A stretch of DNA of 64,000 bases from positions 124,001 to 188,000 of the forward strand of contig CANKYF010000006.1 of the NCBI GenBank assembly GCA_947487895.1. The letters run 5' to 3'. Positions 21,441 through 44,759 of this stretch are shown here, piece by piece. Positions within the stretch are counted from its first letter, which is position 1. Each line of letters begins with the position of its first letter. The translations under genes were made by a program, and so were the position numbers. The stretch comes from an uncultured Flavobacteriaceae bacterium. GTDB lineage: Bacteria; Bacteroidota; Bacteroidia; Flavobacteriales; Flavobacteriaceae. Below the pieces are notes generated by a model. It ran no database searches. It had not been told where the DNA came from and saw only the letters and a list, made by a program, of their open reading frames with translations.

Positions 21441-21470
21441 TTGGCTACTTAAAAAATATCCATATATTTG
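21441..21470 (+). promoter_or_regulatory. Promoter of the PL6-PL17-kdgF operon
   Basis: TTG at 21441-21443 and TATATTTG at 21463-21470 with exactly 19 bases between. The last G of the -7 element is also part of the palindromic operator, so a bound regulator would block the start site. The susC promoter has the same -7 sequence, spacer and operator register. Confidence 0.88.
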
Positions 21471-21504
21471 GCAAACCAAACTGGTTAACCAGTTTGGTTT
21501 GCCA
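21469..21504. promoter_or_regulatory. Perfect 36-bp palindromic operator (probable GntR/FadR-type site)
   Basis: The left half begins TGGCAAACCAAAC and the right half is its exact complement; the centre is CTGGTTAACCAG. The core TGGTTAACCA fits the GT-N-AC pattern bound by FadR-subfamily GntR proteins, and such a regulator is encoded at 36.5 kb. The site covers the transcription start of the PL6 operon. The link to that regulator is inference from motif and co-location. Confidence 0.8.
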
Positions 21505-26610: not shown

Positions 26611-26640
26611 TTGATTTAACAAAAAAATAACATATATTTG
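26611..26640 (+). promoter_or_regulatory. Promoter of the susC operon
   Basis: TTG at 26611-26613, 19 bases, then TATATTTG at 26633-26640. It is the same arrangement as at the PL6 promoter, with the operator starting on the -7 element. Transcription should start near 26646, leaving a leader of over 300 bases before the SusC start. Confidence 0.88.
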
Positions 26641-26674
26641 GATAACCAATCTGGTTTACCAATTTGGTTATCCA
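26639..26674. promoter_or_regulatory. Imperfect 36-bp palindromic operator at the susC promoter
   Basis: The outer arms TGGATAACCAA and TTGGTTATCCA are exact complements, and the centre is CTGGTTTACCAA. Fifteen of 18 half-site positions are symmetrical. Length, register to the -7 element and the TGGT..ACCA core match the operator of the PL6 operon, so the two operons probably respond to one repressor. Confidence 0.8.
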
Positions 26675-26959
26675 GAAACTAAAACTAAACTAAATGTATA
26701 ACGCTTTAAAAAATCAAATTAATTTATGATAACAAAATAAAAAAGGACAGGTGCACGCCTATCCTTTTTAAACAAATTACTTCTTTTTGGAGGGAAGTAA
26801 AATTTATACACGAATTGCTAAACAAAACATGCATATTCAAAATTACAAAAATTTGTTGGAACATTATGTTTTTATGGTAATTAGTGTTGATTGATTAAAA
26901 AATGAATTGGTGTTGAAATCACCAATCAGACTTAACAATTTAAACTAAAAAGACAAATT
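26675..26959 (+). ncRNA. Structured 5' leader of susC, candidate cis-regulatory RNA
   Basis: This 285-base region has no gene. Hairpin 1 (26740-26769) has the arms AAAAAGGA and TCCTTTTT, an inner AGG/CCT helix and the loop TGCACG. Hairpin 2 pairs TTACTTC (26777-26783) with GAAGTAA (26794-26800), presenting GGAGG in its loop. Hairpin 3 pairs ATTGGTG with CACCAAT (26906-26926). The blocks GTGCACGCC and GGAGGGAAGTAAA recur in the leader of the MFS transporter at 37.2 kb, at a similar distance from the start codon. The class is not one I recognise. Confidence 0.55.
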
Positions 26960-29900
26960 ATGAATTTAAAAATTAAACTAACTCTTATTACAATATTGTT
27001 CTTCAATATTGTATTGATTGCCCAGAGTGGAAATACTGTAAAAGGGTCAGTTGTCTCTGCAACAGATAATATTCCCATTCCTGGTGTAAATGTTATAGTG
27101 GTAAATTCAAAAAAAGGAACCACAACAGATTTTGACGGAAATTATCAAATTCAAGTTAATAAAGGGGATGTGCTACAATTCTCTTATGTTGGTTATAAAA
27201 ACCAAACAGTAATAGTAAGTGATCAAACAACAATAAATGTTTCATTAACAGAAGATTTAGCACAACTTGATGAAGTAGTAGTTGTGGGGTATGGAACACA
27301 GAAAAAATCTCATCTTACTGGAGCTATATCTAAAGTAGTAAATGAAAGTTTAGACCAAATAGCAGTAGCTAGGGTCGATGATGCCCTTATTGGTCAAGTA
27401 TCTGGTGTAAATATTCAATCTACCAATGCAGAAGCGGGTGGAGCACCAACTATTACTATTAGAGGTGTAGGTTCAATAACTGGAACAGCAGGTCCAGCTA
27501 TTGTTGTTGATGGTATAATAGTAGATTCTGATTTCCTTGGTAATTTAGATATGAACGATGTAGAATCTTTCGAGATTTTAAAGGATGCAGCATCTGCTGC
27601 TATTTATGGTAGTGAAGGGGCTAATGGAGTTATTTTAATTACTACTAAGACAGGGAAAGAAGGAAAAGCAAAATTTAATTATGACACATATACGGGGTAT
27701 AAATCAGCTTTTGGGAGTGATGATTATAGGAGAAATGCTACCGAGTGGGCCGCTAAAGAATTGGCTGAAACTGGTTCCATTTCTAATAGTAACTTGTACG
27801 CACTAAAACTAATAGAAGTAACAGGTATTGATAGAGATTGGCAAGATGTTTTCTTTGATGGAGGTTTCATTACAAGTCACTCGCTTTCTGCTAGAGGTGG
27901 CACTAAAGACACAAAATATAGTGTGGCTTTAAGATATCTTCATGATGAAGGTGTTGTGATAACAGATGACTACAAGGTATATTCTGCAAAATTGAAAGTA
28001 GATTCCAAATTAACCGATAAGCTTAAATTTGGATTAAGTGCTACACCTTCTTATTCAAAACAAAGACGCTTACCTACATCTATACATAATCCGATAAGAC
28101 AATCTCCTTGGTTACCTATTTATCATACAGCAGAAACGCTTCAGTTTATAGATAGAGATGCGTATCCAAATGTTGGGATAGGAGATTATTTTAGAGAAGA
28201 TCATTTAGATGAGTTGGATATAAATGGAGATGGTAGTACTAGAACACCTCGTACCTCTGGAGATCAAAATCCATATGCGCAATATGTTGAAAGGGAGCAT
28301 TTTGAGTATAAGACGAAAATAATAGGTTCTACTTATTTGAGTTATAAAATTTTAGATGGTTTAACAGCAAAAACAAGTTTTGGTGTTACTTTAGAAGACG
28401 AAAAAAGAACAAGATGGGATGGTACTAAACACCATCATTCAAACCCAGCAGCTTACGAATTAAGAAATAGATTTAGATCCAGGTTGATTTCAGACAATAC
28501 CTTGTCTTATAATAAACAAATAGATAATCATGAAATTGGTCTTTTAGCGGGGGCTACATTTCAGAAGAGAAATGATGAAATAAATACTGTTAATGGTTCT
28601 GGATATTCTAGTGATTTGCTTAAAAACTTACAAGGGGCAACAACTATTACCAAACCAGCAGATAGTGAGATCAATCTTAAAATTAGAAAGATTGGTTATT
28701 TTGGGAGGTTTACTTATGCTTACGCAGATAAATACTTATTTAATGCTTCAATTAGACGAGATGGAAGTTCGGTTTTTGGTGTAGATTCTAAGTGGGGTAA
28801 TTTTCCATCAGTATCTGTAGGGTGGAATGCACACAATGAAAATTTCTTAAGTGATAGTGATTTTTTAAGTAAATTAAAGTTTAGAGCTAGTTGGGGTCTT
28901 ACAGGTTCAGAAAACTTTAACGTAGGAGATGGTTTAACTAATACCTGGCCTTATTTGGCACTTTTGCAAAGTACCAATGCTGTTACAGATAGTGGTGCTA
29001 TTGCTCCAGGTTTTTCTCCAAGAAATATTGCCAATGCATTATTACAATGGGAAGCTTCAGAACAGTTTAATCCTGGTATAGATTTTGGGTTTTTTAACAA
29101 TAGAATAACAGGGTCATTAGACTACTATGTAAAAACCAGTGATAACTTATTGTTAAATCAAGATGTATCTTATGTTACTGGATTTGGAGCAGGAATTGTA
29201 AATAAAGGAAAAGTAGAAAATAGAGGATGGGAATTGGAGTTAAGAACTAATAATATTTCTACAGAAAAATTTAGATGGTCAACAACATTAATAGCATCGA
29301 CCAATAAAAATGAGTTACTTGATTTTGGTAACGATAATGGGAACTTAGGAGTAGATGGATTTGATAGAAATAGCCAATGGATAAACTTGGTTGGCAATCC
29401 AATTTCCTCTTTTTATGGTTTTGTTGCAGATACTGAAATATCAACTGAATATTGGGATACGCCTTATAACCGAATTAATGGACAACCTGAGGACATTATT
29501 GTTAAAGATTTAAATGGAGATGGTTTAATTACAGATGATGATAAGACCATTTTAGGAGATCCTTATCCAGATATCGTTTGGAGTTTTACCAATGAATTTA
29601 AATTTGGGAATTTAGATTTTTCTTTTATGATTCAAGGAAGCCAAGGAGGGCAAATAAGAAACGTTGGAGATCAATATTTCTATCATTTTAGTGGAGCTAC
29701 TTTAGATGGTGCTCCAGAAGCGTTAGTCGCTAATGGAACAATTCCTGATGTTTCTTTCCTTCAGCCAAAGATTTTTACAGATGATATTGTTCAAAATTCA
29801 GGATATTTTTCATTACGTAATGTAAATATCGGTTATAACTTACCAGAGGATGTTGTCTCAAAATTTGGACTTTCATCATTACGATTATATGCTTCTGGTC

Positions 29901-30049
29901 AGAATTTAATTTATATCACTTCTGATGATTATCATGGTTTTAATCCAGAGTTTATTGATAATAATAATACACCTATAACTTATGGCTCTCAAAGAGCAGG
30001 TACACCTTTATTTAGTACTTACTCAGTTGGTTTGAACCTAAATTTTTAA
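26960..30049 (+). CDS. susC: SusC-family TonB-dependent outer-membrane transporter (alginate oligosaccharides)
   Basis: SusC-type porins import glycans in complex with a SusD lid. The 1029-residue protein has a signal peptide (LTLITILFFNIVLIAQ), a carboxypeptidase-D-like regulatory domain (VKGSVVSATDNIPIPGVNVI), the TonB-box/junction region QLDEVVVVGYGTQKK, a plug (VSGVNIQSTNAEAGGAPTI, GVGSITGTAGPAIVVDG) and a 22-strand barrel ending in a terminal Phe (SVGLNLNF). It has its own regulated promoter. susD follows after 18 bp. Alginate specificity is inferred from the neighbouring lyases. Confidence 0.95.
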   Translation: MNLKIKLTLITILFFNIVLIAQSGNTVKGSVVSATDNIPIPGVNVIVVNSKKGTTTDFDGNYQIQVNKGDVLQFSYVGYKNQTVIVSDQTTINVSLTEDLAQLDEVVVVGYGTQKKSHLTGAISKVVNESLDQIAVARVDDALIGQVSGVNIQSTNAEAGGAPTITIRGVGSITGTAGPAIVVDGIIVDSDFLGNLDMNDVESFEILKDAASAAIYGSEGANGVILITTKTGKEGKAKFNYDTYTGYKSAFGSDDYRRNATEWAAKELAETGSISNSNLYALKLIEVTGIDRDWQDVFFDGGFITSHSLSARGGTKDTKYSVALRYLHDEGVVITDDYKVYSAKLKVDSKLTDKLKFGLSATPSYSKQRRLPTSIHNPIRQSPWLPIYHTAETLQFIDRDAYPNVGIGDYFREDHLDELDINGDGSTRTPRTSGDQNPYAQYVEREHFEYKTKIIGSTYLSYKILDGLTAKTSFGVTLEDEKRTRWDGTKHHHSNPAAYELRNRFRSRLISDNTLSYNKQIDNHEIGLLAGATFQKRNDEINTVNGSGYSSDLLKNLQGATTITKPADSEINLKIRKIGYFGRFTYAYADKYLFNASIRRDGSSVFGVDSKWGNFPSVSVGWNAHNENFLSDSDFLSKLKFRASWGLTGSENFNVGDGLTNTWPYLALLQSTNAVTDSGAIAPGFSPRNIANALLQWEASEQFNPGIDFGFFNNRITGSLDYYVKTSDNLLLNQDVSYVTGFGAGIVNKGKVENRGWELELRTNNISTEKFRWSTTLIASTNKNELLDFGNDNGNLGVDGFDRNSQWINLVGNPISSFYGFVADTEISTEYWDTPYNRINGQPEDIIVKDLNGDGLITDDDKTILGDPYPDIVWSFTNEFKFGNLDFSFMIQGSQGGQIRNVGDQYFYHFSGATLDGAPEALVANGTIPDVSFLQPKIFTDDIVQNSGYFSLRNVNIGYNLPEDVVSKFGLSSLRLYASGQNLIYITSDDYHGFNPEFIDNNNTPITYGSQRAGTPLFSTYSVGLNLNF

Positions 30050-30067
30050 CATAAAAAAGAAGTAATC

Positions 30068-31615
30068 ATGAAATATTTAAAAAATATAAAATATTTAATT
30101 GTTGTATTAACAGGAATGATGCTTATTTCTTGTGATGCAGATGAGTTTTTAAACCCACTGCCAGATACGGCTATTGCTGCTGAAGGTTTCTTTCAATCAG
30201 ACGAAGATGTATTGGCTGGAATTTATGGAATTTATGATGCCATACAAGGGGTTAATGAAAATAGACCAAATTCAACTAATAACTCAACTTTTAATAGAGG
30301 AATACAGTTTGAGTATCTTTTGACTGAGCATCGCTCAGACAATACAAGAAGTGCTACACTAGAAGGCTCAAGAGCTGACTTTCATAGATATGTAACAGAT
30401 GCAAATAACATACAATCAGAAGATTATTATCAATCTATGTATGAGATTATTTTTAGAGCAAATAGTGTTATTAGTTATATAGATGCTGCAGATCCAGCAA
30501 ACATTGCAAAATATACAGCTGAAGCTAAATTTTTAAGAGCCTATGCTTATTTTAATTTAGTTAGACTGTATGGAAGTGATAATGATGCTATAGGTGGAGT
30601 GCCATTGGTAACTGCCGTGGCAGAATCCAATGAAGATGAACTACTCTTTACCAGAGAGACTAAATCTGTAGTGTATGGACAAATAGTAGCAGACTTACAA
30701 GAAGCAGTCAATAATTTAGATAACAGCTATAAAGCTAGAGCTTCAAAAGCGGCAGCACAAGGCATTTTAGCAAAAGTGTATTTATCGCAACCAACACCTA
30801 ACTATACTGGAGCTAAAGATTTATGTGAGGCTATTATAGCAGAAGGGAGTTTTAGTTTACAAACAGATTTTAACGATGTATTTTACAATGAAATGAATAG
30901 CGAAGTTATGTTTGTTATTCGATATGAGTTTGCAGAACCAAATGAAAGTCAAGGGTTTTCATCTGAATTTACCTCTTTTATACGTCAAGGTAGACAAGAT
31001 GGGTTAAACATTGTTAACCCTAATTTGGTAGCTGCTTTTAATGAGAACGGAGGAAACAGAACAGCGGTTTCATATATTGCTTTTGGCGATGATGCAGAAT
31101 TAACTGACCCTGATACAGGATTGCCTGCACCACAAGAGGCCGAAGTGGCAAAGTTTTTACCTCAAGGCACTGATTTTGATAACCCAGATTTCCCTTATGG
31201 TACTAATGCGCGCCTTGCAGGTAACGATTGGATTGTATTACGTTATGCAGATGTGTTGTTGATGCATGTAGAAGCAATTATGGCAGGTACAGGTGCAGCT
31301 AATACTACAGATGCACTAAGCTCATTCAACGCTGTTAGAAATCGTGCTGGTTTAGCTAATGATGCTGATGGTGTGATAACACAAGAGGAATTGTTACTAG
31401 AAAGAAGAGTAGAATTAGCTTTTGAAAATCAGCGATTCTTCGATTTGTTAAGATTTGGAGTTGCTGATGCTGTATTGCAAAATCATTCTGCAGAAGATAA
31501 TGATGAAGATATAACAGTTTACCCTAGCTACAATGCTAGAACCTTATTGTTACCAATTCCATCTAGAGAAATTAATTTAAGCAAGGGTCTTTTAAATCAA
31601 AATCCTGGTTATTAA
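30068..31615 (+). CDS. susD: SusD/RagB-family surface glycan-binding lipoprotein
   Basis: SusD proteins cap the SusC channel and bind the glycan. A lipoprotein signal ends in LISC, followed by acidic residues (DADEF) typical of surface-exported Bacteroidota lipoproteins. TPR-like helices carry AEAKFLRAYAYFNLVRLYG (about residues 153-171), the most conserved block of the family. The C-terminal part has the LEERRVELAFENQRFFDLLR type motif (LLERRVELAFENQRFFDLLR in this protein). The length of 515 is usual. It lies 18 bp after susC and 21 bp before a PKD lipoprotein. Confidence 0.95.
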   Translation: MKYLKNIKYLIVVLTGMMLISCDADEFLNPLPDTAIAAEGFFQSDEDVLAGIYGIYDAIQGVNENRPNSTNNSTFNRGIQFEYLLTEHRSDNTRSATLEGSRADFHRYVTDANNIQSEDYYQSMYEIIFRANSVISYIDAADPANIAKYTAEAKFLRAYAYFNLVRLYGSDNDAIGGVPLVTAVAESNEDELLFTRETKSVVYGQIVADLQEAVNNLDNSYKARASKAAAQGILAKVYLSQPTPNYTGAKDLCEAIIAEGSFSLQTDFNDVFYNEMNSEVMFVIRYEFAEPNESQGFSSEFTSFIRQGRQDGLNIVNPNLVAAFNENGGNRTAVSYIAFGDDAELTDPDTGLPAPQEAEVAKFLPQGTDFDNPDFPYGTNARLAGNDWIVLRYADVLLMHVEAIMAGTGAANTTDALSSFNAVRNRAGLANDADGVITQEELLLERRVELAFENQRFFDLLRFGVADAVLQNHSAEDNDEDITVYPSYNARTLLLPIPSREINLSKGLLNQNPGY

Positions 31616-31636
31616 TAACATAAAAAAATAGAAAAC

Positions 31637-32617
31637 ATGAAACAGCAGAAATTAAATGCTTTAAAAAACACTATGTGTTTAGTGTTAGCTCTATTAGTCA
31701 TAACTTTCGTGGTAAGTTGTGAAGAAGCTTTTGAGTTTGATTTACCAGATACTGGTTCTATACCTGATCTCACTTTGCCAGAAGCGAACTTTAGCTATAC
31801 TCCAAATCCAGAGAATTTTAGAATTGTTTCATTTACCAATGAATCTAATGAATCTACAAAATATTTATGGGATTTTGGCGAAGGCGTAGTATGTGAAGAA
31901 GAGAATGGTGTTATTGTCTGTGGTACAGAATCTACTTCAACAGATAAAGATGTTGCGTTTGTAAGATTTGATGCAGGTGAAGGTGATTACGAGGTAACAT
32001 TAACAGCGCTTGACGCAAATGATGCATCAGGAACTAATACACAAATTGTAGAGATAAGGGATGTATTTGTTCCTATTAATCCAATAATTGAAAATGGTGA
32101 TATGGAAACAGGTTTTACCCCTAGTTGGAATATGGAAAAATTTACAGATGGAAAAACAACCCCTCCTAATACATCTAGTGATGGATCCTTTTTAGATTAT
32201 GATGGTGTTGATACCGGTTCAAAAACAAAAGGTATGAAGTTTGCGGCTGGCACTTCTAACCCTGCAGATCCTGGAAATAGAAGATATGCCTATCAACCAA
32301 TAAGAGTATCTGAGACAACAGCAGATCGTACGGTTAAGTATATTGTTGAGTATGAATATGCTATAAAAGTCGCGGCTGCCCCAGGAAGTAATATAACCGT
32401 GCAAATTTTAGATGGTCATTTTGATGATGGAAAAGATGCTCTAGCAGCAAATGTTTTAACAACATCTGTAGCTGATGAACTTTTAGGTAAAGGGGTGTTT
32501 ACAACGGTAAAAAAAGAGTTTACTTCTAATGCAAGTGGTTTAATTTCTATTTGGATTTCAGGTGAGACAACCCAAGATGCGTATATAGACAATGTTAAAG
32601 TGTATCCAAAACCATAA
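31637..32617 (+). CDS. PKD-domain surface lipoprotein, probable alginate-binding protein
   Basis: A lipoprotein signal (VLALLVITFVVSC, then EEAFEF) precedes a PKD-like Ig domain (residues about 47-145, with TKYLWDFGEG as the family WDFGDG motif). The last 180 residues form a second domain beginning NPIIENGDME and ending AYIDNVKVYPKP. That domain is homologous to the C-terminus of the next gene and resembles a carbohydrate-binding jelly roll. The position after SusD is where surface glycan-binding proteins normally sit. Ligand binding is inferred, not shown. Confidence 0.85.
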   Translation: MKQQKLNALKNTMCLVLALLVITFVVSCEEAFEFDLPDTGSIPDLTLPEANFSYTPNPENFRIVSFTNESNESTKYLWDFGEGVVCEEENGVIVCGTESTSTDKDVAFVRFDAGEGDYEVTLTALDANDASGTNTQIVEIRDVFVPINPIIENGDMETGFTPSWNMEKFTDGKTTPPNTSSDGSFLDYDGVDTGSKTKGMKFAAGTSNPADPGNRRYAYQPIRVSETTADRTVKYIVEYEYAIKVAAAPGSNITVQILDGHFDDGKDALAANVLTTSVADELLGKGVFTTVKKEFTSNASGLISIWISGETTQDAYIDNVKVYPKP

Positions 32618-32635
32618 CTAAACAAAATATAAATT

Positions 32636-34402
32636 ATGAATTTATTAAGAAAAGGAATATTTGCCTTACTACTAATAGGACTTATAGTCTCATCATGTAA
32701 CGATGATGACACGATAGTAGCTCCTGATGAAGGCAACGGAGGTACGGGACTTACAGAGATTACATTTCCAAGTCATGCTATAACTGTCAAAATTGAGGAT
32801 GGAGACGGAACTATAGTTAATGTGCGTCCACAAGGTTTAGGGGTTACTTCTTATGTAGTAGATTTTGGAGACCCAAATAGCACAGATGATGTTATAACGA
32901 TTACAGAAGATGCTGGTACAGCTACTTATGATTATCCTAATAATATTGAAGAAGAGACTTATACAATAACGGTTACTGCAAAATCTGATAAGGGTTTCGC
33001 TGATGTTGTTCAAACTAGAAATGTAATAGTGAAGCATGAACTTACTGCTCTATCTTCGGCACCTTTATCACCAACTATACTTGATGAAAATGTATATGCT
33101 GTTTTTAGTGATGGTATTGAAATTGATGGCGCTTTTACTGCCTATACAAACAAATTGTCAAGCTCTAATTTTGATGATAATGATGCAGAGTATAATGAAG
33201 TAGAAGTTGGGGAAATAAAAAATAAAGTAATTCAATATTCTAGGCTTCACGGTACTACTGCTGCATCTATTACTTTTGACCCTGCTATTGTTATTGCAGA
33301 TGTTTTTGGGACAGATGCTTCTGCTGATTATATGCACTTAGACCTTCATTCTATTCATGAAATAGGTGTTGATAAAGTAAAAATAACAATGGGAGGTAAA
33401 ACTTTTGAGCAAACTTTAGAAAATGATATGTGGACAGGTGTAGATATTGATTTTGCTTCTGAAGGGATTACTCAAATAGATGAAATAACATTAGAATTAG
33501 GTACAGGAGGCACTGCAAATAATGAGGCAACTCTTAATGTAGATAACATTTATCTTTACAGAGAACCACTTTCAGTCCCTGATTTCACTTTTGATGATGT
33601 AGCTAGTGATTATGATGTTACATTTACAGATGCTTCTTTACTCGCAACCAGTTATAGTTGGGATTTTGGAGATGGCATAGGTAGCTCAACAGATGCAAAT
33701 CCAACATATAGTTATACTGATGATGGTGTGGAAAGAACGTATATGGTAACGTTAACAACCACAAATTTTATAAACAAACCAACTTCTATTACAAAAGAAG
33801 TTATCGTTGGTGGACCAGCTGGCCCTCTTAATCCTGAAATTCTTAAAGGTGATTTTGAACGTGAAGGAGGTGCATCTTCTGATGATACTAATATTAGAAA
33901 TGCATGGAAAATATCAACCACAGGGAATAGTAACCCATTTGGCACTAGTTCTGATGGTTCTTGTATAGACTATGAGGGAACTTTAGGTTCTAAAACAAGA
34001 GGAGCAAAATGGTCAGGTAGCCAAAGTGCGAATCCTGATGGTACTGCTGTGCCTGGTGATACTAGATATGCATACCAGGCAGTTACATTAAGCCCTAATG
34101 AGGATTACATTTTTGAATATGAATATGCTATAAAAACAGGAGGGGCTGAAACTAACAGTATAGTTGCGTCAATTTTAAATGGCCATTTTAGTAATAGTGC
34201 AGATGCTGTTGCTAGTAATGCTTTGGTAAAGCATGTTGGTACTGAGGCAAAAGGAAAATTTTCAGACAATTCTTGTTCAGGGGGTACAACAATGAAACTT
34301 CAGTTTAGATCTAATTCTGTAGGTGAAGTTGCTATATTTATATACGCAGTAACTGATGTAGACGCTTGGATAGATAATGTTAAAGTATATCCAGCTCAAT
34401 AA
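32636..34402 (+). CDS. Multidomain PKD surface lipoprotein, probable alginate-binding protein
   Basis: The signal ends in LIVSSC followed by NDDD, a good surface-export signal for lipoproteins. The order is: an Ig/PKD-like domain (about 35-135), a beta-sandwich middle (about 140-310, ending NNEATLNVDNIYLY), a clear PKD domain (SYSWDFGDGIG near residue 342) and a C-terminal domain (NPEILKGDFE to AWIDNVKVYPAQ) shared with the preceding protein. At 588 residues it may extend far from the cell. The 18 bp gap places it in the sus operon. Its role as a binding protein is inferred. Confidence 0.85.
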   Translation: MNLLRKGIFALLLIGLIVSSCNDDDTIVAPDEGNGGTGLTEITFPSHAITVKIEDGDGTIVNVRPQGLGVTSYVVDFGDPNSTDDVITITEDAGTATYDYPNNIEEETYTITVTAKSDKGFADVVQTRNVIVKHELTALSSAPLSPTILDENVYAVFSDGIEIDGAFTAYTNKLSSSNFDDNDAEYNEVEVGEIKNKVIQYSRLHGTTAASITFDPAIVIADVFGTDASADYMHLDLHSIHEIGVDKVKITMGGKTFEQTLENDMWTGVDIDFASEGITQIDEITLELGTGGTANNEATLNVDNIYLYREPLSVPDFTFDDVASDYDVTFTDASLLATSYSWDFGDGIGSSTDANPTYSYTDDGVERTYMVTLTTTNFINKPTSITKEVIVGGPAGPLNPEILKGDFEREGGASSDDTNIRNAWKISTTGNSNPFGTSSDGSCIDYEGTLGSKTRGAKWSGSQSANPDGTAVPGDTRYAYQAVTLSPNEDYIFEYEYAIKTGGAETNSIVASILNGHFSNSADAVASNALVKHVGTEAKGKFSDNSCSGGTTMKLQFRSNSVGEVAIFIYAVTDVDAWIDNVKVYPAQ

Positions 34403-34410
34403 TTATTATT

Positions 34411-35331
34411 ATGAAAAACTTCCGAAGAAAAATATTGTTAATTGGATTAATATTCTTTCTATCTGTTAACGCTACTTCTCAAAACAAGAAAAGTAGCGTT
34501 ACAGAATCGGATGTGAAAATTGAAAAAAAGCATAAAAAGAAAAAAAGGAAGAAAAAAGTTAAGCTGCCTAATATAGATTTAAGCCATTGGAAAGTAACAT
34601 TGCCCATAGCAAATAAAGAAGGTAAACCAATTGAAATTAGCCCGCCTGAAATATTAGATTTCGCAAATAACGAAGTAGCAAAACCCTATATGTATATAGA
34701 TTCTACAAAAGGAGCTATTGTTTTTCATGCAATGCCAACAGATTCTAAAACTAGAAACACAAAATATACTAGGTCTGAGTTAAGAGAGCAAATGGTACCA
34801 GGAGATAATAATACTAATTGGACATTTGCAGATGGAGCCTATATGAAAGGTAAATTAGCTATGGAAGCAACCACTAGAGATTCTGATGGAAAGTATCATA
34901 GAACTATTATTATGCAAATTCACGGGCGTTTAACAAATGAACAGCGCGATTTAATTGGAGAAGATGATAATAATGCACCGCCCATATTAAAAATTTATTG
35001 GGATAAAGGAAAGGTTAGAGTAAAAACCAAAGTGCTTAAAAATTTAAATGCTACTTATGAAGAGATGCTACATGAAGATGCTTGGGGTAACGATGATGGC
35101 TTTAATTTTGAACAGGAAGTGGGCTTTAACAAATTTACTTTAGAAGTAAAAGTGTCTGAAGGTAAAATGGTGATTGTTTTAAATGGTACAGAATTTAAGG
35201 TGTATAAAAGTATTCATATGAAAAAATGGGGCATTTTCGAAAACTATTTTAAAGCTGGTAATTATTTTCAAACCAGAGATAAAGGAGCTTTTTCTAAAGT
35301 AAGATTTTATGAACTAGAAGTAAGTCATTAA
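34411..35331 (+). CDS. Alginate lyase, polysaccharide lyase family 7 (secreted, Lys-rich linker)
   Basis: PL7 endolyases cut alginate by beta-elimination. All three family motifs are present: RSELR at 121-125, QIH at 169-171 and YFKAGNY at 279-285; QIH is usually linked to activity on guluronate-containing blocks. A signal peptide without lipobox (RRKILLIGLIFFLSVNATSQ) suggests a soluble exported enzyme. Residues 36-51 form a very basic linker (KIEKKHKKKKRKKKVK) before the catalytic jelly roll. It is paired with a second PL7 13 bp downstream, which has an acidic linker. Confidence 0.94.
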   Translation: MKNFRRKILLIGLIFFLSVNATSQNKKSSVTESDVKIEKKHKKKKRKKKVKLPNIDLSHWKVTLPIANKEGKPIEISPPEILDFANNEVAKPYMYIDSTKGAIVFHAMPTDSKTRNTKYTRSELREQMVPGDNNTNWTFADGAYMKGKLAMEATTRDSDGKYHRTIIMQIHGRLTNEQRDLIGEDDNNAPPILKIYWDKGKVRVKTKVLKNLNATYEEMLHEDAWGNDDGFNFEQEVGFNKFTLEVKVSEGKMVIVLNGTEFKVYKSIHMKKWGIFENYFKAGNYFQTRDKGAFSKVRFYELEVSH

Positions 35332-35344
35332 TAAATTATTAAGA

Positions 35345-36301
35345 ATGATTTTTTTAAATAAAATAATAGAGTTTCAATTTCAAATAAGAGTGTTAATGTT
35401 ATTCTCGCTATTGTTTGTGCTATCTTGTGGTAGTGATAGTCTCCCAGATAGTCCTGAGCCAAATGAAGATATTTCTATAGATGTTACTGAAGAAGAAGAA
35501 GAAGAAGAAGAAGAAGAGGAAGTCGAGGAAGAGGAATCGAATTATAAGTTGCCAAATATAAATTTAAATAATTGGAAGGTTACTTTACCAATAGGGAAGC
35601 CTACAGAAGTTGAACCACCAGAGATATTAGATTATGCAACTAATAAAACCTTGGAGCCTTTTTTTTATAATGATTCTGTAAACGGAGCATTGGTATTCCA
35701 TACATACCCAGGAGCATCAACAACTAATTCGTCTTATTCTAGAACCGAATTGCGTGAGCAAATGACACCAGGTAGCAATAGTACCAATTGGACTTTTAAA
35801 CAAGGAGGTAATATGAAAGGAAGGTTGCAAATGAGTGAAGTTTCAAAAGACAATAATGGAAAGTACCATAGAGCCATTATCATGCAAATTCATGGAAGGT
35901 TAACAAATGTCCAGAGAGATTTAATAGGTGAAGATGATAACAATGCACCACCAATGTTGAAGATTTATTGGAATTATGGGTATGTTAGGGTAAAAACAAA
36001 AGTATTAAAAGATTTAAATGCTTCAGAAACCGAAATTTTACACACAGATGCATGGGGAGATGATGACGGGCATACTTTTAATGAATATGTAGGTTTCAAT
36101 CCATTTAATTTAGAAGTAAAAGTAGAAGAAGGGAAAATGGAGGTTATTTTAAATGACAATGAAAAAGTAGTTTATAATGATATTCACATTCAAAAATGGG
36201 GTGTTTTTGAAAACTATTTTAAAGCGGGTAATTATTTAATTACTCAAGATGAAGGAGCATACGCAACAGTAAAGTACTATGATTTAGAGGTAACTCATTA
36301 G
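35345..36301 (+). CDS. Alginate lyase, polysaccharide lyase family 7 (lipoprotein, Glu-rich linker)
   Basis: This close paralogue of the preceding enzyme is anchored as a lipoprotein (VLMLFSLLFVLSC, Cys28). A disordered linker with 15 Glu in 16 residues (49-64) precedes the jelly roll. Motifs are RTELR at 133-137, QIH at 181-183 and YFKAGNY near the C-terminus, all intact. The catalytic domains of the two PL7s are very alike from KLPNI onward, pointing to a tandem duplication. I keep the first Met because a start at Met18 would remove the basic residues of the signal. It is the last gene of the sus operon. Confidence 0.93.
   Translation: MIFLNKIIEFQFQIRVLMLFSLLFVLSCGSDSLPDSPEPNEDISIDVTEEEEEEEEEEEVEEEESNYKLPNINLNNWKVTLPIGKPTEVEPPEILDYATNKTLEPFFYNDSVNGALVFHTYPGASTTNSSYSRTELREQMTPGSNSTNWTFKQGGNMKGRLQMSEVSKDNNGKYHRAIIMQIHGRLTNVQRDLIGEDDNNAPPMLKIYWNYGYVRVKTKVLKDLNASETEILHTDAWGDDDGHTFNEYVGFNPFNLEVKVEEGKMEVILNDNEKVVYNDIHIQKWGVFENYFKAGNYLITQDEGAYATVKYYDLEVTH
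35489..35515 (+). repeat. (GAA)9 microsatellite inside the PL7 linker
   Basis: Nine perfect GAA codons followed by GAG GAA encode the poly-Glu linker. A triplet tract can vary in length without breaking the frame. Confidence 0.9.
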
Positions 36302-36343
36302 TAAAGCTGTTAATAAGACCATTAAAAACTAGATTAAAAAGTA

Positions 36344-36394
36344 AAAAATGGTTTAACCATTTTTGTTAATTTTATCAAATTGGTTAGCCAATTT
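36344..36394. promoter_or_regulatory. Two operator-like palindromes upstream of gntR
   Basis: Site 1 (36344-36364) has arms AAAAATGGTT and AACCATTTTT around one base. Site 2 (36377-36394) has AAATTGG and CCAATTT around TTAG. Both hold the TGGT..ACCA or TTGGTT..CCAA core seen at the PL6 and susC promoters. They lie 80-130 bases before the regulator gene, consistent with autoregulation. No convincing -7/-33 pair is visible here. Confidence 0.6.
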
Positions 36395-36475
36395 AGAAAC
36401 AATGAGATTAAATATTAGAATAATAGTATAAAAGTGACTTTTTGAAGTTACTCTTAGTATAAATTTTGTAAGCAT

Positions 36476-37177
36476 ATGAAGTTAGAAGCAACCGTATTAA
36501 ATGATAATCAAGAAATCCAAAACGCAATCATTGCGAAGATTAGAGATTTAATAAATTATAAGAATCTTGAGCCTGGAGATAAATTACCTTCAGAGCGTAT
36601 GTTAGCTGAAAAGTTTGAAGTTACTAGAAGTAACGTTAGAGATGCCATTCAAAAATTAGAATTCTATGGTCTATTAAAATCCATACCACAAAGTGGCACT
36701 TTTGTAGCCAATATAGGTGTAACTGCTTTAAATGGTATGATAGAAGATATTTTGAGACTAGATAAACCAGATTTTAAATCGTTGGTAGAAACAAGAATTC
36801 TTTTAGAGCTAAAAACAGCAAGTTTAGCTGCTACCAGAAGAACAGAAGCTGATTTAGAGCATATGAAAGAAACACTAGATGCTTATAACAAAAAGGTAAT
36901 GAATAATGAAGATGCTGTACAAGAAGATTTGTTGTTTCATTTGGCTATAGCAAAAGCAAGTGGTAATAGTACTATGAATACATTGATGTTAACTATAACG
37001 CCAGAGATTATTACCAATTTTGAAAAGTATCACGTATGTGATGAGGATCAGGCTTTTATAGGTATTCAGGAGCACACTGATATTTTTGAAGCTATAAAAA
37101 ATCAAGAACCAACTTTGGCTAAAGAAAAAATGAAAATTCATTTTAAAGCATTATACCAGTATTGTTATAGTGTTTAA
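36476..37177 (+). CDS. GntR-family regulator, FadR (FCD) subfamily, probable alginate-locus regulator
   Basis: The N-terminal winged helix-turn-helix (residues about 12-80) has the family pattern LEPGDKLPSERMLAEKFEVTRSNVRDAIQKLEFYGLL. The helical FCD ligand-binding domain follows, with likely metal or ligand residues in LLFHLAIAKASGN, EHTDIFEAI and MKIHFKAL. Members of this subfamily often sense sugar acids. The gene sits between the lyase/sus operon and the KDG-forming enzymes, next to palindromes shared with both regulated promoters. Repression relieved by KDG or DEH is the likely mode (inference). Confidence 0.92.
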   Translation: MKLEATVLNDNQEIQNAIIAKIRDLINYKNLEPGDKLPSERMLAEKFEVTRSNVRDAIQKLEFYGLLKSIPQSGTFVANIGVTALNGMIEDILRLDKPDFKSLVETRILLELKTASLAATRRTEADLEHMKETLDAYNKKVMNNEDAVQEDLLFHLAIAKASGNSTMNTLMLTITPEIITNFEKYHVCDEDQAFIGIQEHTDIFEAIKNQEPTLAKEKMKIHFKALYQYCYSV

Positions 37178-37199
37178 TAGATAGATATAGATATAATTG

Positions 37200-37420
37200 A
37201 AGTTAGGAAGTGCACGCCATAACTTTAGTTTAAATAATTAGGAGGGAAGTAAATACCTAAACGTATTTCTTCATAAGATTAATAGAGCTTTTTTTGATGC
37301 TTTGAGCATCCACTCTTAAAGCAATAAGGATAATTAAATAGTTTATTTTAAGTGAATGTTGATTTTTATCAGCAACTAGATACTATTGTCTAATTTTAAG
37401 TGAAACAAAAATATAAGTAT
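37200..37420 (+). ncRNA. Structured leader of the MFS transporter, related to the susC leader
   Basis: A hairpin at 37200-37225 pairs AAGTTAGG with CC-A-TAACTT, and its loop contains GTGCACG. GGAGGGAAGTAAA follows at 37241-37253. Both blocks recur in the susC leader, while the stem sequence differs. Further hairpins are GATGC/GCATC near 37300 and TGTTGAT/ATCAGCA near 37360. The block lies about 168 bases before the ATG, against about 159 at susC. No terminator separates it from gntR. Confidence 0.5.
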
Positions 37421-38713
37421 ATGAAATTAAAAGGTTTAAGGTGGTGGATAATTGGGCTTATTTTCTTGGCAACTGTTATCAATTATATAGATAGAACAGC
37501 ATTTGCACTATTATGGCCAGAAATGGGTAAAGATCTAGGCATGGATAATTCAGATTATGCCATTATGCTAAACATCTTTATGGCAACTTATGCAATAGGT
37601 AAGTTTGCTTCTGGAAAGTTATATGACGTTATAGGTACGCGTTTAGGTTTTACAGTGTCTATCATTGTATGGTCATTAGCATCTGTATTTCATGCATTTG
37701 CAAGAGGGTTAGTGTCACTTTCAGTAGTTAGGGCTCTGTTAGGTTTAGGTGAAGCTGGTAATTGGCCAGGAGCCGTTAAAAGTAATGGAGAGTGGTTCCC
37801 TATAAAAGAAAGAGCCACAGCACAAGGCATTTTTAATGCTGGAGCTTCTATAGGAAATGTAATTGCACCTTTTGTAATTGTGTTTTTGTATTCGCAGTTT
37901 GGATGGAAAACAACCTATATCATTTTAGGACTTGTAGGTATGCTTTGGGTTATTCCTTGGTTGTTTATAAATAAAGCAAAACCAGAAAATCATTCATGGA
38001 TTACAGACAAAGAAAAAGCTCTTATTTTAAATGATAGAATAGAAAGAAATGAAGAAGAAGAAGAAAGGGCAGAAAAGCCTAAAGGTTTAACTATAAAACA
38101 ATTATTAAGCCATAGAGAATCTTGGGGTGTTTTATCCTGTAGGTTTTTTATTGAACCTATTTGGTGGTTTTTTGTTGGATGGATGCCTATTTATCTAGCC
38201 GATAAATTTGGGCTAAATATTAAAGAAACACAAACTATCTGGATTTCATATTTAATGGCAGCTACTGGCAGTATACTTGGAGGTATGTTTACAGGAGCTT
38301 TAATGAAAAGGTTGTCTGTAGATGCCTCAAGAAAAATAGCTATAACAATTGGGGGTATACTAATTTTAGTTGCTTTTGTAGGGATAATAACAATGGTAAG
38401 AGAAGATAACTTTATGACGTTTATCTACCTAGCAGGTCTTGCGTTGTTTGGTTTTCAATTTGCTATTGGTAACATTCAAACTATTTCTAGCGATTTATTT
38501 AGAGGACCATCTGTAGGTACATTAGCAGGTATGGCTGGTACTGTTGCAGCAGTCTCCCCTATGATAATGAATTGGTTTGTTGGTAAAATAACAACAAGTT
38601 CATACACACCAGCATTTATTGCTATATGTGTTTCAGTAGCATTAGGGGTTTTATCAATCTTTTTATTTATAAAAAATATAGGACCAGTTAGAAAGAACGT
38701 AGAAAAATTATAA
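37421..38713 (+). CDS. MFS transporter, hexuronate (ExuT-like) type
   Basis: This is an inner-membrane permease of the anion:cation symporter family with about 12 helices. I start at the ATG 37421 rather than an upstream GTG, because MKLKGLRWWIIGLIFLATVINYIDRTAFALL is the usual N-terminus. Motifs include INYIDRTA in helix 1, GLGEAGNWPGAVKSNGEWFP and RATAQGIFNAGASIGN, all typical of hexuronate and galactonate carriers. In this locus it probably imports unsaturated uronate or DEH from the periplasm. SDR genes follow after 29 bp. Confidence 0.92.
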   Translation: MKLKGLRWWIIGLIFLATVINYIDRTAFALLWPEMGKDLGMDNSDYAIMLNIFMATYAIGKFASGKLYDVIGTRLGFTVSIIVWSLASVFHAFARGLVSLSVVRALLGLGEAGNWPGAVKSNGEWFPIKERATAQGIFNAGASIGNVIAPFVIVFLYSQFGWKTTYIILGLVGMLWVIPWLFINKAKPENHSWITDKEKALILNDRIERNEEEEERAEKPKGLTIKQLLSHRESWGVLSCRFFIEPIWWFFVGWMPIYLADKFGLNIKETQTIWISYLMAATGSILGGMFTGALMKRLSVDASRKIAITIGGILILVAFVGIITMVREDNFMTFIYLAGLALFGFQFAIGNIQTISSDLFRGPSVGTLAGMAGTVAAVSPMIMNWFVGKITTSSYTPAFIAICVSVALGVLSIFLFIKNIGPVRKNVEKL

Positions 38714-42260: not shown

Positions 42261-43151
42261 CTAGTAATATGCGATCTCTCTCACTTCAATGGCCGTTACT
42301 TTTCCTTCTCTAAAGTGCTTTTTCTCTATCCAGTTGCCTTGGGTGTCGTAACGATATTCATACTTGAGAATGCTGCCCCTACCTGTGTCATAGGTTATTA
42401 CATCTCTATTCTTGTTGTGGGTGTACTCTTGTTTTGTTTGACCTTCTTGATCTGGCATAGAGGTAATTACTTGGGCGGGAAGACCAGCAGCATCGTAGGT
42501 ATAATTCATTGTAAGGGTATGAACGCCATCTTGTGTGAGCATCTTGCGCTCTAGAGGTTTTCCTTCCTTATTATTCTTGTATTCATTGCGTCTTGTCACT
42601 TTTTCATTAAGGTATTCTGTATCGCTCACGATGTGCCCATTTTTATCAAGTACATTTTCTGTTTTTCCTGTTTCATTCCCATCCTGGTCATATTGCGTGG
42701 CTACAATAAGGGTGTTTTCTTTGTTTACAATATGTACTTCTTTTGTATTATTTGTTTTATAATCAACGGTAACGGTGGTTTGGTCTGGCTGGTCTGAGGT
42801 GTAGCTATAAGCCATATCAATCACGGCTTGTCCTGTTTTTGTAAGGCGCTTTTCTGTGGTGAGAAATCCTGATGTGTTGAAAAGTTTGAGACTTTCTATT
42901 TTGTAATGTTCTGGAATGATCTGTGTGTCTCCTTCTCTATTTGCATAAGACTTTGTGGCTACCGACTTTACGTTTCCTTTTAAATTAAATAGCTCTAGAT
43001 CATTATTTTGGTTTGGGGTGCTAGCGGGCATAGACTGTTCTTGAGAGGTGGGTGCTTCTTGTTTTACTTTGGTTTGGTCTTGTTTATTTGAATCTGCACA
43101 GGCTGTACTCAGGCTGGAGATAATGGTCAGGGATACGATGATTGATTTCAT
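42261..43151 (-). CDS. Lipoprotein with YD/RHS-like repeats (copy 1)
   Basis: The signal ends in LSTAC. After a low-complexity linker, the protein consists of beta strands in short repeats of the type Y-x-x-D-x-x-G-x-x and N-x-x-G (for example YDQDGNETGK, LDKNGHIVSD, YTYDAAGLPAQ, YRYDTQGNWIEKK). It ends GKVTAIEVREIAYY. It shares the start (LKGNVKSV) and the end (NWIEKK to REI-YY) with the next gene, so the two are paralogues. The G+C content is visibly above that of the core genes. The function is unknown; such repeats form wrapped beta structures at the surface. Confidence 0.75.
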   Translation of the reverse strand: MKSIIVSLTIISSLSTACADSNKQDQTKVKQEAPTSQEQSMPASTPNQNNDLELFNLKGNVKSVATKSYANREGDTQIIPEHYKIESLKLFNTSGFLTTEKRLTKTGQAVIDMAYSYTSDQPDQTTVTVDYKTNNTKEVHIVNKENTLIVATQYDQDGNETGKTENVLDKNGHIVSDTEYLNEKVTRRNEYKNNKEGKPLERKMLTQDGVHTLTMNYTYDAAGLPAQVITSMPDQEGQTKQEYTHNKNRDVITYDTGRGSILKYEYRYDTQGNWIEKKHFREGKVTAIEVREIAYY

Positions 43152-43190: not shown

Positions 43191-44078
43191 TTAGTTATAA
43201 TATGTAATTTCTCTTGTGTCGATAAAGGTGAGTTGTTCTCCGTTGTATTCTTTCTTTTCTATCCAGTTGTTATGGTCGTCATAGCTATATACATAGCGCG
43301 TGGATGTTCTTTGGGGAGGTGCTGGGGTTTCAGTTACAAGGTCTCCTTGTGTGTTGTATATTCTCTGAACGCTAGGGCGGCTAGCATTATCTACAGTGAG
43401 GGTTAGGGTTACGTCTTCCTCTAGACCATCTTGCGAGTAGCTATGTGTTGTGGTTTGAATAAGATTACCACTTGCATCAAAGTCTTTACGAGTGGCTACT
43501 TTACCTGCGGTAATGTAGGTAAATGCATTTGAGTTGCCTTTCACACCGTTTCTAAAAATGGTTGTGTTTTGTATTCGACCGTTACTGTCTAGGGTATTTT
43601 CTTTTACTTGTAATGCTTCTCCTTGCTCATTGAAATACGTCTGAGACCGTAGTATTCCTTTTTTCCAAGTTTGCTTCATCACTAGCATTCCTGCTTTATT
43701 TGTGGTGGTAACGACTGTCTCACTGGGTGTAGCAGTGGTGTATTTATAGTCTAAATAGTAGGTTTCTTCTCCATTTGCATCTAGGTTTTTGACGTTTTGC
43801 ATTGTACCACCCTCGTTATAGGTATATACTGATATATCCTCAAGATTTTCCTCTTGAGGGGTTGAGGAAGTATCACTCGTTGCATAGGTTTTTTGCGTTA
43901 GAGTTTTAACGGGTCCCTTCAAGTTATTTTGCGTTAGGTGATTGATTTTATTATTCATTGATTTTGTATCTTTTTGCGTCGTGTTTAGGGATATGCTCTT
44001 ATCAGATATGTTTTGATTTTGCTGGGAATTTGCTATGGAGAAAGCGATAAGCATTGCATTGACTATTTGAATTTTCAT
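43191..44078 (-). CDS. Secreted YD/RHS-like repeat protein (copy 2)
   Basis: This is a paralogue of the preceding entry, 39 bp upstream of it on the same strand. The N-terminal segment is a signal peptide (QIVNAMLIAFSIANSQQ) without lipobox. The repeats have the same style (YNEGGTMQNVKN, LDSNGRIQNT, YSYDDHNNWIEKK), and the C-terminus is FIDTREITYYN. LKGPVKTLTQKTYA matches LKGNVKSVATKSYA of copy 1. The two probably form one transcript. No enzymatic motif is visible. Confidence 0.7.
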   Translation of the reverse strand: MKIQIVNAMLIAFSIANSQQNQNISDKSISLNTTQKDTKSMNNKINHLTQNNLKGPVKTLTQKTYATSDTSSTPQEENLEDISVYTYNEGGTMQNVKNLDANGEETYYLDYKYTTATPSETVVTTTNKAGMLVMKQTWKKGILRSQTYFNEQGEALQVKENTLDSNGRIQNTTIFRNGVKGNSNAFTYITAGKVATRKDFDASGNLIQTTTHSYSQDGLEEDVTLTLTVDNASRPSVQRIYNTQGDLVTETPAPPQRTSTRYVYSYDDHNNWIEKKEYNGEQLTFIDTREITYYN

Positions 44079-44246: not shown

Positions 44247-44759
44247 TTACATTTTAAATTCTGTCACTTCGTAGTCCACTAGCGTCCAGTTCTTTTTATT
44301 ATAGCGAAATTTGCCATAGCAATTAACATTTTCAGTTTTGAAAAAAAGGTCAAAATTGAGCGTATCTGCCTTGAATTCAAATACATTAAAAACGATTACA
44401 TCATCAATATTTGCTTCTTGTACTTCTGCTGTGGTCATCATCTTTACTTTTTGGTCATATTTTTTCACATTAAGAGTTGCTGGAATTTTTTCTGAAATCT
44501 GAATCTTTGCGGGCACACGCGCTGACACTTCTTGATGGAATATTCCCTGTAATCTGGGCAAATCTATAATGTGTTGTACCACCTGGTCAATAGCTGGCAC
44601 CTCTTGGGTGTGTTTTGAAACTGGAATTTCATATGTGGTGGACAGTGTAGCTTCGGCATTGGATTTTTTGACATTTTCTGCACAAGACAGTATAGCCAAG
44701 AGCGCTATTAATAATAGGCTGGAATATGCTATTTCTGATGTTTTACTTATAGAACTCAT
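44247..44759 (-). CDS. Orphan lipoprotein
   Basis: The signal YSSLLLIALLAILSC gives a lipoprotein of about 140 mature residues. The C-terminal part is a beta-rich domain (DDVIVFNVFEFKADTLNFDLFFKTENVNCYGKF) ending NKKNWTLVDYEVTEFKM. I recognise no family. It is transcribed toward the YD-like pair, separated by 168 bp and a hairpin. Confidence 0.65.
   Translation of the reverse strand: MSSISKTSEIAYSSLLLIALLAILSCAENVKKSNAEATLSTTYEIPVSKHTQEVPAIDQVVQHIIDLPRLQGIFHQEVSARVPAKIQISEKIPATLNVKKYDQKVKMMTTAEVQEANIDDVIVFNVFEFKADTLNFDLFFKTENVNCYGKFRYNKKNWTLVDYEVTEFKM

Follow-up and report, generated by a model that had tools for sequence, protein, structure and literature searches.

A predicted antisense small RNA in the susC leader of a flavobacterial alginate locus and its co-evolving partner site in the gntR-MFS spacer

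Alginate is a major marine carbon source, and most of what is known about RNA-level control at polysaccharide loci comes from gut Bacteroides. We describe two short putative RNA elements in the alginate locus of an uncultured Flavobacteriaceae bacterium (GenBank assembly GCA_947487895.1, contig CANKYF010000006.1, positions 124,001 to 188,000); this whole stretch of 64,000 nucleotides (nt) is called the window, and all coordinates are counted from its first letter. One element, copy 1, lies in the leader of a susC-like TonB-dependent receptor gene (26960-30049, plus strand; Pfam Plug, TonB_dep_Rec_b-barrel and CarbopepD_reg_2). The other, copy 2, lies in the spacer between the gene of a GntR-FCD regulator (36476-37177, plus strand; Pfam GntR and FCD) and an MFS transporter gene, which follows 3' of copy 2 (37421-38713, plus strand; Pfam MFS_1). 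A Pfam search of the window proteins places both copies inside one alginate locus, which also encodes susD, a PKD protein, two Alginate_lyase2 proteins, two SDR proteins, a PfkB kinase and Chondroitinase-B/alginate-lyase type genes. We take the genes of the latter type to be PL6 and PL17, a small gene of the locus to be kdgF-like, and the regulator to be AusR-like.

The two copies share two sequence blocks. An earlier note on this DNA, made from the letters alone, had reported both blocks in the same order at two places and nowhere else in the window, and this proved correct: when both strands are scanned, GTGCACGCC has two exact occurrences, both on the plus strand (26751-26759 and 37210-37218; mean chance expectation 0.06, two occurrences in 0 of 100 shuffles), and GGAGGGAAGTAAA occurs without mismatch at exactly two window sites (26789-26801 and 37241-37253). 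Throughout the assembly, the ordered pair is confined to these two places, and the reversed control gave none. The note had also described a hairpin at each place with the first block on its loop side, and both hairpins were located (26741-26751 paired with 26758-26768 in copy 1; around 37200-37225 in copy 2). For the second block, which it had put about 160-170 bases before both start codons, the distance from the end of the block to the ATG is 158 nt at susC (26960) and 167 nt at the MFS gene (37421). The comparison with Rfam that it had proposed returned no family for either copy: among the Rfam 15 families, nothing but a tRNA reached the gathering score in the window, and the only sub-threshold match near either copy was RefA9 (20.8 bits against the 49 needed, expectation value (E) 0.67).

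The exact block pattern recurs in 20 of 249 genomes of the family, the own genome counted (reversed control, 0), and in 87 stretches of named genomes, 85 of which are flavobacterial alginate loci; the remaining two come from bins of Owenweeksia and of Lachnospiraceae, in which no alginate gene was found. Cultured hosts of copy 1 include Seonamhaeicola algicola and Kordia periserrulae. The relatives form two classes. Class A, to which copy 1 belongs, usually sits between a kdgF, PL17 or SDR gene and the alginate susC, and in a few genomes before gntR (loci L006/L068, L147 and L186), whereas class B, to which copy 2 belongs, sits between gntR and the MFS gene. In Jejuia sp. UBA6058 (L065 and L090), in genome G236 (L147) and at L006/L068, both elements lie on one contig or copy 1 precedes gntR; in the latter arrangement, the cis-antisense partner would be the gntR-MFS operon itself. 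A class A covariance model, R2, matched 92 of 397 family genomes at E 0.01. An AusR-like protein was found at E 1e-75 in 100 of the 397, and 84 of these have an R2 match, one of them (G331, L187) without an alginate gene nearby. At E 0.001, 4 of 345 genomes of the wider taxonomic class were matched; three of them belong to the family, and the fourth match is a terminator without alginate genes. The strict filters of these large-scale model searches lose weak matches. The class A set analysed below comprises 131 loci drawn from pattern and model matches, after removal of ten model matches without alginate genes around (L183, L187, L188 and L190-L196), the chance pattern matches L054 and L084, class B loci, loci with short flanks and sequence duplicates.

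Several features indicate that copy 1 folds on the minus strand. The class A stems barely vary, and on the plus strand they show 100 A.C against 5 G.U pairs in stem P1 (124 loci) and 28 against 4 in stem P2 (126 loci), which gives 128 against 9 in total; the 46 distinct P1 sequences show 47 against 5. Plus-strand A.C mismatches are G.U wobbles on the minus strand, which is therefore taken as the folding strand. The same count could serve as a simple tool for telling the RNA strand of other "leader motifs". The share of paired cells is 98.5% in 36 rows read on the minus strand, compared to 94.2% in a different set of 36 rows read on the plus strand. The minus strand also carries transcription signals. 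In Flavobacterium psychrophilum, TAnnTTTG at -12 to -5 is the sigma-A box (PMC9723704). Such a box was found on the minus strand in 106 of the 131 loci, at a median of 37 nt from P2 (shuffled mean 12, maximum 23; other orientation 0 of 131), and in the window it is the -7 box TAATTTTG (26838-26845, minus strand). At the other end, the A-run before P1, i.e., the minus-strand U-tract, exceeds the plus-strand T-run after P1 in length at 113 of 124 loci; the two runs are equal at 6, and the T-run is the longer one at 5.

The ends predicted from the -7 box and the U-tract delimit a putative small RNA of about 99 nt, antisense to the susC leader (26735-26833, minus strand, 5' end at 26833), which folds as three hairpins (-27.7 kcal/mol). 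Hairpin H2 (26777-26800) has the stem TTACTTC/GAAGTAA and a C-rich loop (CCTCC) facing the purine block, i.e., the second shared block, and 98.0% of its cells pair among 36 sequences; hairpin H3 (26741-26768) is the predicted terminator, with the loop CGTGCA and a U-tract at 26744-26739, and 98.7% of its cells pair. The predicted RNAs of 103 loci are 79-103 nt long, share the layout of a 5' hairpin, a C-rich-loop hairpin and a terminator hairpin with the loop CGUGCA, and are more stable than their complements in 88 cases. The 5' part folds at -6.0 kcal/mol on average compared to -2.3 kcal/mol in shuffles (101 loci); the minus-strand alignment A6 does not align this part, so that the 5' hairpin is proposed from folding and mononucleotide shuffles. 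RNAalifold on long plus-strand leaders did not resolve a third hairpin. At 129 of 131 loci, the 160 nt that precede copy 1 contain a sense TAnnTTTG box, the presumed susC promoter (26633-26640, plus strand, in the window, with a predicted start near 26645), and the susC transcript and the small RNA would therefore converge. On wobbles, terminator, promoter and folding, copy 1 is more likely a minus-strand small-RNA gene.

Copy 2 (37198-37273, plus strand) comprises the loop block GTGCACGCC at 37210-37218, the purine block GGAGGGAAGTAAA at 37241-37253 and a local hairpin read from the sequence (37246-37256/37263-37272). The window's own copy is irregular and therefore stands outside the class B alignment (A5), which holds 43 of 53 sites, the others being nine irregular ones, the window's included, and one duplicate. 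In the gntR-MFS spacers, the stem sequence varies between genomes and yet pairs, enclosing an 8-nt loop NUGCAC(G/A)N that is followed by a purine block (G/A)(G/A)AGGGAA. All 11 stem pairs change on both sides in some sequence of the 43 regular examples, and the covariation score is 0.70 versus 0.22 in shuffles, dropping to 0.27 or less when the helix is slid. With 33 G.U against 13 A.C pairs on the plus strand, the folding strand of class B is that of the mRNA.

The earlier note had read the differing stems of the two copies as compensatory change in one conserved fold. This holds for the MFS side and fails for the susC side, where only 1 of 19 pairs changes both sides on the plus strand (36 sequences); since the susC-side stems hardly covary, compensatory change is no fitting description of one element in two copies. 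A structured, conserved RNA at alginate uptake genes is supported, and a small-RNA target was among the readings that the note had named. Its view of both copies as the same kind of cis leader gives way to a minus-strand RNA signature in copy 1 and a plus-strand site in copy 2. The minus-strand reading of copy 1 would explain why the stems are frozen there and free in copy 2, and the two copies would resemble each other because the letters of copy 2 are those with which the copy-1 RNA can pair.

Pairing of the small RNA with copy 2 requires that, within each genome, the two copies have equal plus-strand letters. Copy 2 was surveyed in 80 of the 92 R2-matched genomes and found in 61; those left out are G331, G229, G392, G396 and eight in which no AusR-like protein reached E 1e-75. 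All 61 genomes have matching loop hexamers in their two copies, compared to at most 45 in 10,000 shuffles, and this includes 16 genomes with rarer loops: UGCACA in 11, CGCACA in two (G388 and G165), and UACACG (G265), UGUACG (G337) and UGUACC in one each. The purine class is equal in 58 of 60 genomes (at most 43 in shuffles), and where the purines of the copies differ, the change from copy 1 to copy 2 is A to G in 15 of 24 cases, so that a U.G pair is retained. A tree of the gntR proteins shows 13 changes for each of the two loops; six of six independent pairs of loop changes on well-supported branches agree in direction (p 0.031), with 12 pairs on all branches. Predicted pairing energy is -19.5 kcal/mol for cognate partners, a value not reached in 10,000 permutations, against -17.9 kcal/mol across non-cognate genomes. 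In the window itself, a helix of 9 bp would form at the loop (-19.5 kcal/mol) and one of 13 bp at the purine block (-22.8 kcal/mol), as calculated for excised fragments with their own folding ignored; whole-RNA duplex predictions were set aside because they chained distant pieces together.

In 17 of the 19 genomes without copy 2, as judged by eye, the copy-1 loop lies outside the set seen together with copy 2, so that the partner site seems to preserve the loop letters. Thirteen of the 19 retain the exact minus-strand box on copy 1, i.e., the antisense gene outlives its partner. Entries made by hand were the copy-1 loops or purine blocks of 24 loci, copy 2 of eight genomes (G000, G213, G248, G165, G099, G388, G265 and G140) and the purine blocks of G160, G071 and G323; of the two copies 1 in G236, the matching one was used on the tree.

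Taken together, it is highly probable that the susC leader contains a minus-strand small RNA of about 99 nt with a co-evolving trans pairing site in the gntR-MFS spacer. Comparative sequence support covers the folding strand, the promoter and terminator signals, the trans complementarity and its co-evolution; transcription of the small RNA, the direction in which it acts on susC, and a role of copy 2 as a decoy and not as a regulated target are inferred. Several observations weigh against this interpretation. All evidence for the predicted small RNA comes from sequence comparison, the exact minus-strand box is missing in 25 of 131 loci, and no -33 box was evident among the class A loci, as is also reported for F. 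johnsoniae (PMC7366714). The purine class is unequal in G218 and G279, copy 2 has no purine block in G165 and a broken one in G140, and the second copy 1 of G236 has a loop unlike its copy 2. G104 and G026 retain the common loop with no copy 2 found; in G026, a susC follows gntR, so its MFS spacer was not seen. The tree offers one well-supported independent pair for the purine class, and its test of copy-2 presence against loop state gave p 0.25, so that these two links rest on counts. Finally, loop scoring was partly done by eye, and the genomes are related rather than independent points.

How might such a pair of RNAs work? Copy 1 would be the template of the minus-strand RNA, whose promoter faces that of susC and whose terminator would be the first hairpin of the earlier note. 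Being fully complementary to the susC leader, the RNA would act on it as a cis antisense, and its C-rich hairpin loop and terminator loop would pair in trans with two parts of copy 2, the loop NUGCAC(G/A)N and, behind it, the purine block (G/A)(G/A)AGGGAA. When alginate is absent, the small RNA would damp susC; once the repressor is released, the gntR-MFS transcript and the susC leader itself would titrate it, and uptake across the outer and the inner membrane would rise together. Candidate sites for the repressor are at hand. Tandem triplets of TGGnnnnCCA with 13-bp spacing lie before the PL6-type gene (21469-21504) and before susC (26639-26674, with sites at 26639, 26652 and 26665), where they overlap the sense promoter box, and a single site precedes gntR (36381-36390). 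These are likely operators of the GntR-FCD regulator, and the site at 36381 suggests that the gntR-MFS spacer transcript may be inducible. An antisense RNA in the susC leader that is held in check, via its terminator and C-rich loops, by a target-mimicking spacer between regulator and transporter is thus a tentative model, to which we give somewhat less than an even chance. If true, it would mean that Bacteroidota arrived on their own at a ChiX/chb-like decoy design, which compensatory evolution between two RNAs has maintained.

The alternative that fares best retains the small RNA and regards copy 2 as a regulated target, the RNA acting on the stability, processing or translation of the gntR or MFS mRNA; its chance is nearly even. 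The evidence for it is positional: in 59 loci, the purine block lies a median of 55 nt (31-109) past the gntR stop and 164 nt (51-224) before the MFS start, so that pairing could affect the 3' end of gntR or the processing of the RNA between the two genes. The distance to the MFS start speaks against a simple blocking of MFS translation or ribosome entry, and nothing else separates target from decoy.

It is improbable that both copies are instead plus-strand cis leaders, be it riboswitches, attenuators or two sites of one RNA-binding protein. Copy 1 would also be part of the susC leader, given the sense promoter upstream in 129 of 131 loci, and a model built from class B only, R3, matches class A loci as well, such as the window's own copy 1 at E 3.5e-4; in 40 genomes, its matches outside the alginate locus were few and weak (E 0.2 or more). 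A protein with a changed preference could also drive equal changes in both copies. The 128 A.C against 9 G.U pairs nonetheless speak against a plus-strand riboswitch or attenuator at copy 1. Such leaders would also leave the minus-strand promoter and U-tract unexplained, and single-letter loop changes shared by both copies (UACACG, UGUACG, CGCACA) would be unexpected in a metabolite aptamer.

Less probable still is that copy 1 does no more than end the upstream kdgF transcript, or terminate transcription in both directions, with no small RNA. P1 does resemble an intrinsic terminator, similar hairpins end other genes, and the ten model matches dropped from class A show little likeness beyond P1 and no alginate genes around. 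Against this stand the position of copy 1 downstream of the susC promoter, the U-tract that points to the minus strand, and H2, the minus-strand promoter and the loop co-evolution, which a terminator would leave unexplained. That the copies bind each other or themselves by kissing of their palindromic GUGCAC loops is hardly credible: UGCA and GUGCAC are self-complementary and do lie in hairpin loops, but non-self-pairing loops occur in both copies, UACACG in G265 and CGCACA in G388 and G165.

Other candidates were discarded. CsrA acting on GGA motifs was rejected, as the own genome yields no match to PF02599, which was found in 3 of 14 control genomes. No separate small RNA with both complementary blocks (TTCCCTCC, then CGTGCA within 30 nt) is shared among 26 GGAGGG-type genomes; this search, made for this order and a gap of up to 30 nt, returned copies 1 and 2 and four scattered single matches, one in G017, one in G211 and two in G360. 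A circular permutation of hairpin 2 between the copies was abandoned with the minus-strand reading of copy 1. As separate observations, a conserved terminator AAAAAAAGGATAGATGCCC(CC)AAATCTCTATCCTTTTTT occurs in three genomes, the own one included (L190 in G207, L192 in G019 and L193 in G000:C4), with L192 and L193 72% alike over 3 kb; it may mark where another conserved transcript ends. In L348 (G595, from a different family of the class), a terminator GGTATAGTGCACGCTATACC has the same loop, no alginate genes and no second hairpin, and its likeness is probably due to chance. Next to the alginate genes of the window, three adjoining open reading frames have no Pfam match (42261-43151, 43191-44078 and, on the minus strand, 44247-44759).

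For many marine seaweed-degrading bacteria, an antisense small RNA with a docking site is thus more likely than two similar RNA switches. The small RNA and its partner site can be traced by base-pair co-evolution across dozens of marine genera, the natural compensatory loop variants (UACACG, UGUACG, CGCACA and UGCACA) provide ready-made genetic tests, and the circuit would link outer-membrane uptake by SusCD to the alginate repressor and the inner-membrane transporter. No published description of the elements was recognised in a literature search that reached few subscription papers. Previously undescribed structured 5' transcripts of F. psychrophilum are likewise leaders conserved at the family level with no Rfam match, but those listed precede pheA, hisG, ftsY, acsA, alaS and rimP, not alginate genes (PMC9723704). 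FopS and GibS of Bacteroides thetaiotaomicron act on susC mRNA of polysaccharide loci, FopS by pairing close to the start codon via a single-stranded 5' seed, with 14 paralogues (PMC11697453); in contrast, the shared blocks described here occupy two hairpin loops, there is usually one copy 1, and the predicted RNA starts with a hairpin.

The closest parallels are DonS and ChiX. DonS and DonS-like RNAs of Bacteroides are 78-128 nt long, lie antisense at the susC of a polysaccharide locus and have a sigma-A type box, and DonS is said to lower susC (PMC7366714). The copy-1 RNA is similarly short, with predicted ends in 103 loci that fall within this range (79-103 nt), and its sigma-A type promoter box, terminator and fold lie on the minus strand opposite the susC leader, or before gntR in a few genomes. 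It differs from DonS in belonging to Flavobacteriaceae and alginate, in having a second, unlinked and co-evolving pairing site in the gntR-MFS spacer, and in being a prediction from sequence. Such a site recalls ChiX, a small RNA opposing an outer-membrane uptake gene, for which the chbB-chbC spacer is a decoy by experiment, and also ChiZ (PMC8383071, PMC7815308). In both cases, the inner-membrane uptake operon for the same sugar carries a pairing site in a spacer that is complementary to the small RNA and resembles its target; the inducibility of the spacer would be a further likeness. ChiX, unlike the copy-1 RNA, is not antisense to its target leader, is unrelated in sequence, and has an experimentally proven decoy, which is here only presumed. 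The best reading of the locus combines both designs: a DonS-like antisense small RNA of susC with a co-evolving partner site that would serve as a ChiX/chb-like decoy or as a second target.

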